A stretch of DNA of 64,000 bases from Gelidibacter japonicus. GTDB lineage: Bacteria > Bacteroidota > Bacteroidia > Flavobacteriales > Flavobacteriaceae. Below, one piece after another: positions 1 through 51,109 of the stretch. Position 1 is the first letter of the stretch. Each line of letters opens with the position of its first letter. The notes under the pieces were generated by a model. It was given only the letters and a program-made list of their open reading frames with translations. It was not told the DNA's origin and did no database searches. The stretch spans positions 372,001-436,000 of the forward strand of contig NZ_BJKB01000001.1 in NCBI RefSeq assembly GCF_010725055.1, given 5' to 3'. A program made the position numbers and the translations under genes.

Positions 1-400
1 AATCGGCAAATTCATATTGATGGTTGACATAAATAGGAATCCCATAGCCTTCCACTTCCCAGTTGGACGGCACCTTGATATCATCCCAAGAAGACACATC
101 CTCGTTTGGATCCATAAATGTTGTTGGCCGATCAGCAGGATTTCTAACCCAATTGAATTTCCAAATCCCATCCAATAATTGATGGTATTTTGGCGTATTG
201 TTCAACGCTTCCTTTTCCGAAGTAAATGAAGTAAATGAGGCGTGCGCATCCATCTTATTTTCACTAATAACGCCTTCGTTCATAATATAATCTACGTAAT
301 CCGTTATCGGATTTTTTTCTTGGGCATTACCGTTGGAAACTACAAGAAAGACAAGCGCCAATTGGAGGGCAGCTGAAGCCGATTTCTTTAAAATTGTCAT
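1..400 (-). CDS. GH2 family beta-galactosidase, N-terminal part (runs off window)
   Basis: Only the first 133 codons are in the window; the gene continues beyond base 1. The start ATG lies at 400-398 and is followed by a Sec signal peptide (about residues 1-26, ending GNAQ). The mature start contains the sugar-binding jelly-roll motifs of GH2 beta-galactosidases: [11 protein letters not shown], then [18 protein letters not shown]2 enzymes of this kind remove terminal beta-galactose. No catalytic residues are visible because they lie further downstream in the protein. Next to PNGase F and GH92 genes, the likely substrate is galactose on complex N-glycan antennae (inference). Another GH2 activity such as beta-mannosidase is possible, but the N-terminal motif looks like the LacZ type. 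Confidence 0.85.
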
Positions 401-634
401 GAGAATTTATATAAATAAAGGATTAAAATTTTAATTATTATTTTTAGCAGATCTGAAAGCTTGCATTAAATCAATGACTTTCCGAACCAGTGACAATTGA
501 CATTATCATAAACGGGTTAAAATTAAGCAATATTCCATAAATAGTATTATGTACGACATATTAAATTTTTCGAAATTGGTTCCGTAAAAAAATCAGGTAA
601 TAACTTTTTAAGACACCCCACATAAAGAGACTAT

Positions 635-1813
635 CTATTCATAAGTCAGATACGCGGAAACCAGCCAATGATTCAATTTATCACCATCAACAGGTGTCGC
701 CGGGATTTTAATTTTTATATCATGATTTCCTGCTTTCAGATTGCCTAAATCCACCACCATCGGTTCCACAAAAGACCCTGGGCACCAGTTGGAACGCGAC
801 AAATCTGAAGAAGCAATGCGCTCTTCAATTTCCTTAATTTCGTATTTTCTGGTTTCCGAACTTATATAAGAAGCCGAATCTTTCTTGATCCACACGCCCG
901 AAGTTGGATTGAAACGTCTAAAAGAGGCGCAATCATCACGCCACGGAATGGTATCCAATACCAATTTGCCGTCAAAATAGACACTGTTTTTGATTTTGAT
1001 GAATTCATCTCCACCGCTATGCCCACCGTGCCCGGTTGTGATATAATGTAGTTTGACATTTTTGGCATCCTTTTTTAACTGAATGGTCTGTTCCAAGTCT
1101 TTATGGGCAAAATTATCGGGGATTTGCTGTCCGCCAACATAAGGAATGGTATTTACTATGGGTAACACGGAAACTTTTCGCTGTTTTCTATCGGAATACG
1201 TGAGTTCCATATCAAAATCATAGCCTTCGGAAGTCCAAGTGTCAATCCAGACGCCCACATAAAACGTTCCGGTGACCAAGCTTTCCAAATCGGTGATATC
1301 ATGTTCCCAAACCACTTGTTTTTCCCATGATGGAATATAAACAGGTCGTCTATATTTCACCTTGTTATCGCTATAATAGCCAACGCCAAACGGGGTCATA
1401 AATCGCATTAGTTCTACAACAGGATTATAGTTTTTGCCAGTGACGAAACCGGCATATTTATCATCGACATAAGAATCGGTCGGGAATTTTTCGCCCTTTT
1501 CCGCAATGGAAAGAATGGATAGTTTTTCTGGATCGGTGACTACAAAACAAGATCCGGATTTGTCCCAACGATCGCCAGCGGAACGCACGGTCAATTTGAT
1601 TTTGACATCGGTTCCATTTGCAAATGTAGGAACGGTCACCTTTTTATAGACCAAACGTCCGTCCATTAATCTGACGGCATCAGTATCCGTGCCTTTGTCA
1701 CCAGTAAAGTTTATAGGTTGTTTTTCGAAGATCTTGTAGGTTGAAGGGTTTTGTGCGTTGGCTGAAAAGAGCGATGCAAAAAGAAATGTTATGAGTAGGG
1801 ATTTGAATTTCAT
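635..1813 (-). CDS. PNGase F-family peptide-N4-(N-acetyl-beta-glucosaminyl)asparagine amidase
   Basis: The 392-residue product has a Sec signal peptide (residues 1-21, SANAQ) followed by the two beta-sandwich domains of the PNGase F family. Recognisable blocks are RWDKSG (about 82-87), RFMTPFGVGYY (about 137-147), the hinge ITDLESLVTGTFYVGVWIDTW (174-193), GGDEF (267-271) and SNWCPG (341-346). The enzyme hydrolyses the glycosylamine bond between Asn and the first GlcNAc, releasing whole N-glycans from glycoproteins outside the cell. From memory of Elizabethkingia PNGase F, Asp84 and Glu270 match its essential Asp60 and Glu206, while its Glu118 position seems to be Asp191 here. It sits between GH2 and a GH92 gene, at the downstream end of the N-glycan block. 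Confidence 0.85.
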   Translation of the reverse strand: MKFKSLLITFLFASLFSANAQNPSTYKIFEKQPINFTGDKGTDTDAVRLMDGRLVYKKVTVPTFANGTDVKIKLTVRSAGDRWDKSGSCFVVTDPEKLSILSIAEKGEKFPTDSYVDDKYAGFVTGKNYNPVVELMRFMTPFGVGYYSDNKVKYRRPVYIPSWEKQVVWEHDITDLESLVTGTFYVGVWIDTWTSEGYDFDMELTYSDRKQRKVSVLPIVNTIPYVGGQQIPDNFAHKDLEQTIQLKKDAKNVKLHYITTGHGGHSGGDEFIKIKNSVYFDGKLVLDTIPWRDDCASFRRFNPTSGVWIKKDSASYISSETRKYEIKEIEERIASSDLSRSNWCPGSFVEPMVVDLGNLKAGNHDIKIKIPATPVDGDKLNHWLVSAYLTYE

Positions 1814-1851
1814 TTTTAGATGATTTTATATTTTGAAAATGTGAGTTAAAA

Positions 1852-50700: not shown

Positions 50701-51044
50701 CCGTAACCTGTAATTACAATTTCGTCCAACATCGCGGTATCTTCTGCTAAAGACACGTCAATTGTTGTTTGGTTTGTGACTGTGACCTCACTAGTTTTGA
50801 ACCCTACAAAGCTAAATACAAGAATATCACCCGTATTCGCATTGATGGAGTAATTTCCATCAAAGTCTGTAGTTGCTCCGGTACTCGTTCCCTTTATAAT
50901 GACCGTTGCCCCAGCTAAAGGCAATTGATCTCCGGACGAAATTACCGTTCCCGTAATTGCTTTTTCCTGACCAAAACCAAAGATCGGTAAGGCAAAAAGC
51001 AAAATAAATATCAAGTAAATGACATTTGAATCTTTTTTTCTCAT
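47790..51044 (-). CDS. SusC/RagA-family TonB-dependent transporter (sialic acid module)
   Basis: 1084 residues from the ATG at 51044 (a TTG nine bases earlier is open). Signal peptide to about GFGQ, carboxypeptidase-like domain (ITGTVISSGDQLPLAGATVIIKG), TonB-box area DEIVITGYGRQSRAQL, plug with SDDIESIEVLKDAAATAIYGARSANGVI split at 195-225, and a barrel ending in FTLGLNLTF. Partner of the following SusD. A palindrome shared with the GntR/epimerase gap lies 49-65 bases upstream of the ATG, a sensible position for operator control. Confidence 0.95.
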   Translation of the reverse strand: MRKKDSNVIYLIFILLFALPIFGFGQEKAITGTVISSGDQLPLAGATVIIKGTSTGATTDFDGNYSINANTGDILVFSFVGFKTSEVTVTNQTTIDVSLAEDTAMLDEIVITGYGRQSRAQLTTSVSKLDTQILETSTRSNVATALQGTIAGLRVTNTTGQPGSTPQIILRGGTGFSGTGSPLILIDGIPGSFYALNSDDIESIEVLKDAAATAIYGARSANGVILVTTKTGKVGRSSINYRYKYSSNHERNDQKYLGAEDHINYNRQSIAWYREVVGNPNSFGAFLTGANSMGTGNNATNDPFTTQLLTPANSYLLNQPGWKSIPDILDPSQEIIFYDDKDIADRIYQNSASKDHYLSFDGGNEKGTYYLGLGLLDNDGLILGSGFKRYSGKFSGSYKITDNFKVNSNILYSHSNLSLSPLGGDDTVFRRFQGQAATSRTYDSNPDGTWSDQYAPGQNQGFGNPLYYQDKFVRKNLEQRLSASVGIDWDILDDLTFSLNGSHFTINNHNESFNRAYRTGSNTSTLRTSREAGVSLGRTLRNQLTGTLNYMKKFGDHNFNVLVGGEYFKDNYFTTYSGTRNSPTDLIETLNAGAEADGIPYSFETEYVIVSTFGRVLYDYDDRYLFGFTYRYDGSSRLGNNKYDFFPGVSVGWNAHNEQFFKDSSIKDVITRLKPRLSYGVNGNQDVLSNYGVYGSYGQQGVYNGQTGYANSSLPTLDLVWEKSTTFNAGLDISFFDDRISFIADVYSRDIKDKLANLTLPYYTGFSSILTNNGTIRNKGFELQLNTDIIRNSDLTWNLGATFTTNKNYVINLPENDNDRNRQGGTLIWNPKTGQEEWVGGFQEGQRSGHDLVVAFEQAGIYATQAEADADNAIRDDYMPANSRNKRWAGDVKWVDQNGDGIINNLDRKVIGRTTPDFVGGITTNVKYKRFNLFVKTDFATGHLVWNHINNKGYGQTQGNLAQPVVVKDSWTPTNTDTDWPRFVFVNGSKNVWRAGEGESDLQYFGNEKFWEKGDYLALREVTLSYDLPTEYFNGVIQRFSIYATGSNLHYFKSMTGDTPEIGGVQYGAFPVPRTFTLGLNLTF

Positions 51045-51092
51045 ATTAAACAATTTGAATTAGTTAAAATTGGATAGTTAATGTCTGAAAGT

Positions 51093-51109
51093 ATTATGTT
51101 ATACATAAT
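51093..51109. promoter_or_regulatory. Likely GntR operator in front of second susC
   Basis: attatgt-tat-acataat is a perfect 7-3-7 inverted repeat of the TGT-N3-ACA form. Its 15 rightmost bases are identical to those at 42294-42308. It is centred about 57 bases upstream of the susC ATG, consistent with a site that overlaps or lies close to the promoter. Confidence 0.72.

Follow-up and report, generated by a model that had tools for sequence, protein, structure and literature searches.

What kind of unit is the run of glycan-degrading genes at positions 1–51,109 of a 64,000-nucleotide stretch of DNA from the marine bacterium Gelidibacter japonicus (contig NZ_BJKB01000001.1, positions 372,001–436,000; G000:C1:372001-436000 in our coordinates, hereafter the window), and which regulators serve it? 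A sequence-only reading had described it as one continuous, near-complete N-glycan pathway with a LytTR-linked half beside a GntR-linked half. We consider it probable that these genes form the rightmost 51 kb of a Gelidibacter island for glycoprotein foraging that spans at least 91 kb and in which an N-glycan module and a sialic acid (nan) module are interleaved and the regulon of a GntR regulator flanks the LytTR-linked module. Gene content, synteny, operator conservation and transporter identity were computed as the basis of this view. No paper on this Gelidibacter locus was found in the open-licence PMC literature on Gelidibacter and sialic acid. G, C and L numbers below are our handles for genomes, contigs and loci.

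Gene families were called by Pfam scans of the open reading frames (ORFs) in the window, and every family previously named was recovered: four GH92, two GH29, two GH20, GH27, GH18 and GH130 glycoside hydrolases (GH), two BNR-type (GH33-like) sialidases, PNGase F with both of its domains, Asparaginase_2 of the aspartylglucosaminidase (AGA) type, an SSS symporter, a GDSL+SASA double esterase, a DHDPS-family lyase, and N-acetylglucosamine (GlcNAc) 2-epimerase. The regulators are a histidine kinase (HK) with a LytTR response regulator, and a GntR-FCD protein. Two SusC/SusD pairs adjoin the carbohydrate-active enzymes, which is the gene content of a SusCD-based polysaccharide utilization locus; with the outward enzymes and a UhgbMP-like GH130 phosphorylase, the view of a glycoprotein-glycan degrading region stands. 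The genes are almost all on one strand, as had been stated: of the 33 ORFs kept (2-51053), only HK, LytTR, and GntR are on the plus strand, and the other 30 are on the minus strand. LrgB, LrgA, a creatininase family protein, a YhcH/NanQ-like protein, a GHL10-like lipoprotein, and a CBM9-like protein are additional to the earlier inventory.

The region had been bounded by the window edge, and the island extends leftwards from there by 40 kb or more. Pfam scans of the same contig showed glycan genes continuing ca. 40 kb left of window position 1: three GH2 genes, one of which spans the edge of the window, another GH27, one GDSL esterase, two sulfatases, GH84, GH123, and GH20 genes, a fusion of NanM-kelch and SSS domains (Kelch-SSS), a hybrid sensor, and a GH109-type gene. 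A third SusCD pair also lies there, and the distance from its SusD to SusC2 is ca. 91 kb. The island measures at least 91 kb (C1:332001-423110), the Pfam annotation having reached left to C1:332001. The pathway is less complete in the window than had been claimed, as the β-galactosidases and the sialic acid inner-membrane transporter lie to its left.

Gene order was retained in 7/7 congeners fetched as far as their contigs reach (those of G006 and G007 stop early on the left side), with gains and losses: GH33b had no match in G003, G007, and G008, GH29b had none in G001, G004, G006, and G008, and additional SusC genes occur near PNGase F in G001, G003, and G005. Because the same order is present in all seven congener assemblies fetched, the join of the blocks is not an artefact of one assembly. 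In the eighth congener, G002, PNGase F was not found, and neither was a close relative of Kelch-SSS or HK (best 35% and 39%, respectively).

The island is a composite of an N-glycan module and a nan module, which are apart in other genera and joined in Gelidibacter and in G266, a genome of another genus; the view of it as one evolved unit is not supported. In five of five other genomes having both a close HK relative (55–68% identity) and a nan-type NanE, the two were unlinked, lying on different contigs in G314, G161, G303, and G269 and separated by 550 kb in G039, where N-glycan genes beside the close HK relative were verified (G039 only). Stretches around PNGase F of four genera (G014, G043, G039, and G026) contained the N-glycan module without nan genes, the contigs of G043 and G026 ending inside the stretches fetched; two other PNGase F genomes (G032 and G013) lacked most of either module around PNGase F. 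In G266, N-glycan genes are inserted within the nan locus (C1:194324-231940; L216, L217, and L188) in the order GH2b, creatininase, GDSL, PNGase F, GH92, GH29, GH20, AGA, GH18, CBM9-like, GH130, SSS, GH92d, GH20b, GH27, esterase, sialidase, NanE, operator, GntR, NanA, SusD2, SusC2, and operator. From the GntR/nanE operator to GH2b, 19 ORFs are co-directional over 30.3 kb with gaps of 1–238 bp. No HK orthologue was found in G266 (best 35%), and a close HK/LytTR and SusCD1 were not found nearby.

These data bear on the possibility that two unrelated loci have been adjacent since the Gelidibacter ancestor and were kept so by generally stable gene order, with no joint function. The separation of HK and NanE in all five other genomes and the synteny of genes right of the island are what this explanation would predict. 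Against it speak G266, a genome of another genus whose nan locus contains co-directional N-glycan genes and in which GH2/GDSL genes lie on the far side of PNGase F as in Gelidibacter, and a predicted GntR site beyond the N-glycan module in 4/8 Gelidibacter genomes. We regard it as possible but doubtful, and prefer the composite island with a shared foraging role.

The gntR–nanE gap of eight Gelidibacter genomes contains one conserved block with the palindrome ATGTnnnACAT, and related copies are located before SusC2 and before Kelch-SSS. We scored the palindrome as TATTATGTNNNACATAATA with up to two mismatches in the 300 bp before each gene, using the same letters backwards as the control (the L104 row duplicates G006 in these counts). 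In all loci, it was detected before GntR (34/41), NanE (34/44), SusC2 (27/31), NanA (10/41), and Kelch-SSS (15/31), while the reversed control gave 0 before each of these five genes. The motif was derived from Gelidibacter sites, so the independent counts are those for loci outside Gelidibacter: GntR 26/32, SusC2 18/22, NanA 10/32, and Kelch-SSS 8/24. The Kelch-SSS copy was present in 7/7 Gelidibacter examined. GntR loci without the palindrome were G007, L109, L112, L113, L114, L193, and L202. No copy with up to two mismatches preceded SusC1 (0/9), HK (0/8), GH92d (0/9), PNGase F (0/9), GH130 (0/9), or GH2b (0/11). With a conserved palindrome ahead of both the gene of this FCD-type GntR and the nan genes, the sequence pattern of a NanR-type regulon is present. 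The predicted operators of G. japonicus are as follows.

C1:346760, left of the window: before Kelch-SSS
545..563, no strand: predicted GntR (NanR-like) operator before GH2, 1 mismatch, in 4/8 Gelidibacter genomes
42291..42309, no strand: predicted GntR operator between nanE and gntR, 2 mismatches
51092..51110, no strand: predicted GntR operator before SusC2, 1 mismatch

With up to one mismatch, 3/3 sites in this genome were inside the island (Kelch-SSS, GH2, and SusC2), and the GntR/nanE copy has two. The genome-wide tally at this threshold, which covers G000, G001, G003, G004, G006, and G008 (G005 and G007 were listed in part), placed in the island 3/3 sites of G001, 2/2 of G003, 4/4 of G004, 2/2 of G006, and 4/4 of G008. 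Predicted GntR targets flank the LytTR-linked module on both sides. Therefore, the predicted GntR regulon brackets that module, and a LytTR half simply set beside a GntR half does not describe the locus. Separately, extra SusC or sialidase-like genes with their own palindrome copies were observed near PNGase F in G001 and G003 and between SusC1 and GH20b in G005.

Two other regulatory schemes were considered. In one, the LytTR regulator would run the left half and GntR the right half, and GntR would have no targets elsewhere; the positions of the regulators agree with it, as do the two strong GntR sites on the right, and the predicted sites before GH2 and Kelch-SSS, the latter conserved in Gelidibacter and in 8/24 other loci, make it unlikely. 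In the other, GntR would also control the N-glycan genes by read-through or unseen sites, LytTR being minor. G266, with its long co-directional run and no HK orthologue, would suit such a single regulon. We judge it improbable for Gelidibacter, where no site with up to two mismatches precedes SusC1, HK, GH92d, PNGase F, or GH130 and where SusCD1, HK, and LytTR stand between the blocks. A GntR regulon flanking the LytTR-linked module remains the preferred scheme.

The Kelch-SSS fusion (C1:343997-346612, or L009:11997-14612; 871 aa) is located outside the window, ca. 67–76 kb from the nan operons. Its symporter half matches SiaT of Proteus mirabilis (5nv9, 7e-118) and its other half matches NanM/YjhT of Escherichia coli (2uvk, 2e-9). 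It is a single open frame in 11/12 loci and two adjacent genes in the twelfth. Using SiaT numbering according to PMC5931594 and fusion residues counted by hand on the alignment, Ser60, Thr63, Phe78, Arg135, Asp182, Ser342, Ser343, Ser345, and Ser346 were retained; these include the carboxylate-binding Arg135 with Ser60 and Thr63 and the Na2/Na3 sites of a SiaT-type symporter. Both known proteins are matched, and of the SiaT residues compared for ligand and Na+ binding, most are retained. Unlike SiaT and NanM, the two activities would here reside in one polypeptide, and Thr58 is replaced by Leu and Gln82 by Asn. In the available text of PMC5931594, Thr58 is tied to the anomeric hydroxyl, and the mutarotase acts before uptake; NanM is described in that of PMC10017367 as a soluble enzyme of the periplasm, upstream of NanT. 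As a further observation, the Arenibacter loci L106 and L108 have a second, separate kelch gene directly after the fusion.

Several results weigh against the proposed reading. In the whole genome of G. japonicus, up to two mismatches gave 7 sites versus 6 for the reversed control; the operator evidence is location and conservation, and the raw site number is no evidence. Three of the two-mismatch sites are outside the island, in or near apparent housekeeping genes, and were taken as chance. The palindrome precedes the full-length GH2c gene in 4/8 Gelidibacter and 0/2 other loci, and G002, which lacks PNGase F, has one 1-mismatch site elsewhere. No LytTR site was found, as words common to the HK/GH92d gap and the sequence upstream of SusC1 were no better than shuffles. 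NanA, GntR, the NanU-like SusD, and the YhcH-anomerase all fall under NCBIfam equivalog cut-offs, and the two substitutions in the fusion affect SiaT positions. In addition, genes past the right border (SDR, CMD, and cbb3) also hold position in most congeners, and synteny within one genus is weak evidence of function.

The N-glycan module (635-31863) carries, by family, a release enzyme, trimming enzymes, and Man-β-1,4-GlcNAc (Man, mannose) cleavage (PNGase F, GH92, GH20, GH29, and GH130). Of the GH2 gene at position 1, the window holds only the first 399 bases. Features from the left edge to SusC1 are listed below.

2..400, minus strand: GH2 (LacZ-type) 5′ end, first 399 bases; whole gene of 1118 aa at C1:369044-372400, continuing left of the window
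635..1813, minus strand: PNGase F, secreted (Pfam)
1916..4204, minus strand: GH92 a (Pfam)
4138..6516, minus strand: GH92 b (Pfam)
6763..8109, minus strand: GH29 a (Pfam)
8170..9483, minus strand: GH29 b (Pfam), in 4/8 Gelidibacter genomes
9487..11823, minus strand: GH20 a (Pfam)
11935..12954, minus strand: aspartylglucosaminidase type, Asparaginase_2 (Pfam)
12966..15212, minus strand: GH92 c (Pfam)
15219..16334, minus strand: uncharacterised GHL10-like lipoprotein with a predicted barrel; 10 relatives have it in their N-glycan modules
16358..17524, minus strand: GH18, chitinase-like (Pfam, motif and structure matches)
17589..18650, minus strand: CBM9-like secreted protein, in 11 relatives
18850..19815, minus strand: GH130, UhgbMP-like phosphorylase; no signal peptide seen
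20269..22146, minus strand: SSS symporter beside GH130, putative Man-GlcNAc importer (Pfam)
22153..24417, minus strand: GH92 d (Pfam)
24625..26445, plus strand: histidine kinase and LytTR response regulator (Pfam)
26783..31863, minus strand: SusD1 and SusC1 (Pfam)

The nearest solved relatives of GH130 are UhgbMP mannoside phosphorylases. GH18 has the catalytic motif DGVDLDWE and was closest to chitinases among the best 60 of 135 solved matches. The GHL10-like protein had no PDB sequence relative at E 0.01; its model (mean pLDDT, the predicted local distance difference test, 67.1) matched solved β-galactosidases, GH164 mannosidases, and other barrels at template modelling (TM) scores of up to 0.57, and the protein may be a barrel hydrolase, a candidate new glycosidase. 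The CBM9-like protein gave a poor structure model (mean pLDDT 56.8). The SSS symporter of the window was considered as an importer of N-acetylneuraminate (Neu5Ac) and is disfavoured in that role, as it accompanies GH130 in N-glycan modules without nan genes. HK relatives in two genera have one in-frame TGA (G026:C7:255798-256832 and G043:C22:30341-31384).

The second part of the island, with the nan genes, is composed of the following features.

32262..34316, minus strand: GH20 b, start of the nan-linked block (Pfam)
34497..35678, minus strand: GH27 (Pfam)
35695..37878, minus strand: GDSL + SASA double esterase (Pfam)
37815..38937, minus strand: LrgB (37815-38519) and LrgA (38494-38937) (Pfam, NCBIfam)
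39143..40267, minus strand: GH33-type sialidase a, lipoprotein, with YRIP and five Asp boxes
40288..41067, minus strand: creatininase-family amidohydrolase, close to PDB 3lub
41077..42231, minus strand: NanE, N-acylglucosamine 2-epimerase (Pfam, NCBIfam)
42362..43081, plus strand: GntR-FCD regulator, NanR-like (Pfam, NCBIfam)
43078..43533, minus strand: YhcH family, NanQ-like anomerase (NCBIfam)
43556..44716, minus strand: GH33-type sialidase b
44889..45794, minus strand: NanA-like lyase (Pfam, NCBIfam)
46270..51053, minus strand: SusD2 (NanU-like) and SusC2 (NanO-like) (Pfam, NCBIfam)

With lyase, epimerase, and regulator in the window and the importer to its left, the genes of a nan operon are present. 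NanE exceeded its NCBIfam cut-off (656.6 vs 600). The NanA-like lyase was under its own (161 vs 281), and its nearest solved matches are N-acetylneuraminate lyases; the NanR score of GntR (90.8, cut-off 260) places it outside the E. coli-type NanR family. G+C was uniform over the window (0.35–0.42), and an RNA family search of the window found none except a tRNA-Leu beyond the glycan region. A palindromic repeat of ca. 50 bases, CCTGTCAGGTTT...AAACCTGACAGG with the loop CCGCCGAAGGAGG, is intergenic and scattered over the genome (window 1854-1901, 34340-34391, and 39091-39124; C4:30126, C4:228876, C13:91833, and C1:292706). Right of the island, the short ORF 54361-54906 aligns with no more than part of the specificity domain of a type ISP restriction enzyme.

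For comparison, nan loci were taken from 80 named loci found via NanE and from the 36/299 family genomes with NanE at E ≤1e-100, 33 neighbourhoods of which were fetched; the windows were ca. 20 kb, so that absence means nearby absence only. Two repeated records and low NanE relatives were dropped, which left 34 nan loci outside Gelidibacter that combine NanE with NanA or GntR. They contained GntR (32), NanA-like (32), GH33a-like (25), NanOU-like SusC (23), Kelch-SSS (23), creatininase (19), GDSL (11), YhcH (6), GH2 (5), LrgAB (4), and PNGase F (1, G266). The creatininase-family protein scored 196 bits with PF02633 (cut-off 31.3), matched 3lub at 5e-61, and retains motif stretches of 3lub, a putative creatinine amidohydrolase; its NCBIfam creatininase score (66.5 vs 235) is below the equivalog level. 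LrgB was found in 18/299 family genomes, nine of which also had a NanE match; it lay <10 kb from NanE in five of the nine (three Gelidibacter, G188, and G295) and apart in G030, G037, G297, and G302. It was also found in two of five Arenibacter loci. Replacement of a missing sialic acid importer by LrgAB was rejected, as LrgAB coexists with the Kelch-SSS fusion in L106, L108, L194, and L201; Gelidibacter carries both. Since LrgAB is described in the available text of PMC6790026 and PMC5626966 as a pyruvate carrier and NanA makes pyruvate, LrgAB might plausibly serve here to let pyruvate out. Titles and abstracts of the open-licence PMC literature yielded no report of creatininase, LrgAB, or a NanM-symporter fusion in sialic acid use.

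Bacteroides N-glycan loci are regulated by a hybrid sensor, whereas the presumed regulator here is HK/LytTR. They also differ from the present locus, which unites PNGase F, aspartylglucosaminidase, GH29, and GH130 next to a nan operon. The complex and high-mannose N-glycan loci of gut Bacteroides and the Gpd complex of Capnocytophaga canimorsus are alike in SusCD-linked breakdown, GH18/PNGase release, GH92, GH20, and GH130, as far as described in the available text of PMC10154615, and a title cited there refers to multiple co-regulated loci in Bacteroides N-glycan use. In Bacteroides fragilis and Tannerella forsythia, the nan operons (NanR, NanL/A, NanE, NanT, NanOU, NanH, and esterase) share NanOU-type SusCD, lyase, epimerase, sialidase, esterase, and hexosaminidase with ours; the available text of PMC3969230 describes a sialic-acid-responsive regulator for them, and leaves the mechanism of nanR-mediated derepression in Bacteroidetes unclear. 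In contrast to these operons, the present system has a predicted GntR operator, a NanM-SiaT fusion in place of NanT, an added creatininase, and, in some loci, LrgAB. For a fish-gut Flaviramulus, TRAP sialic acid transport was predicted (available text of PMC4324048).

Enzyme specificities, regulation, and the roles of LrgAB and creatininase are predicted from the genes in what follows. On animal-type glycoproteins, esterase and sialidases would uncap the glycan and free Neu5Ac; GH2, GH20, GH29, and GH92 would trim the antennae; and PNGase F or GH18, with aspartylglucosaminidase, would free the glycan and the Asn-GlcNAc stub. SusCD1 would carry the N-glycan through the outer membrane, the SSS symporter would import Man-GlcNAc, and cytoplasmic GH130 would split it with phosphate, HK/LytTR being the presumed sensor of the N-glycan module that switches the mannose side. 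SusCD2 (NanOU-like) would import Neu5Ac, the NanM-SiaT fusion (mutarotase and Na+ symporter) would move it through the inner membrane, and YhcH, NanA, and NanE would convert it to GlcNAc and pyruvate. The NanR-like GntR would control four promoters via one palindrome (fusion transporter, window-edge GH2, gntR/nanE, and SusC2) and so switch the sialic acid and β-galactosidase side.

More tentatively, there may be a sialic acid regulon of Flavobacteriaceae in which the GntR palindrome spans 76 kb flanking an N-glycan locus, mutarotase and symporter form one chain that imports Neu5Ac, and two functions so far unrecognised take part: the creatininase-family hydrolase acts on a sialic acid derivative, and LrgAB moves pyruvate or glycolate from sialic acid breakdown. 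For this family, the locus provides a testable candidate operator for sialic acid control and flags three proteins for sialic acid use: the NanM-SiaT fusion, the nan-linked creatininase, and the nan-linked LrgAB. It also shows two glycan loci interleaving in Gelidibacter or fusing into one gene run in G266.

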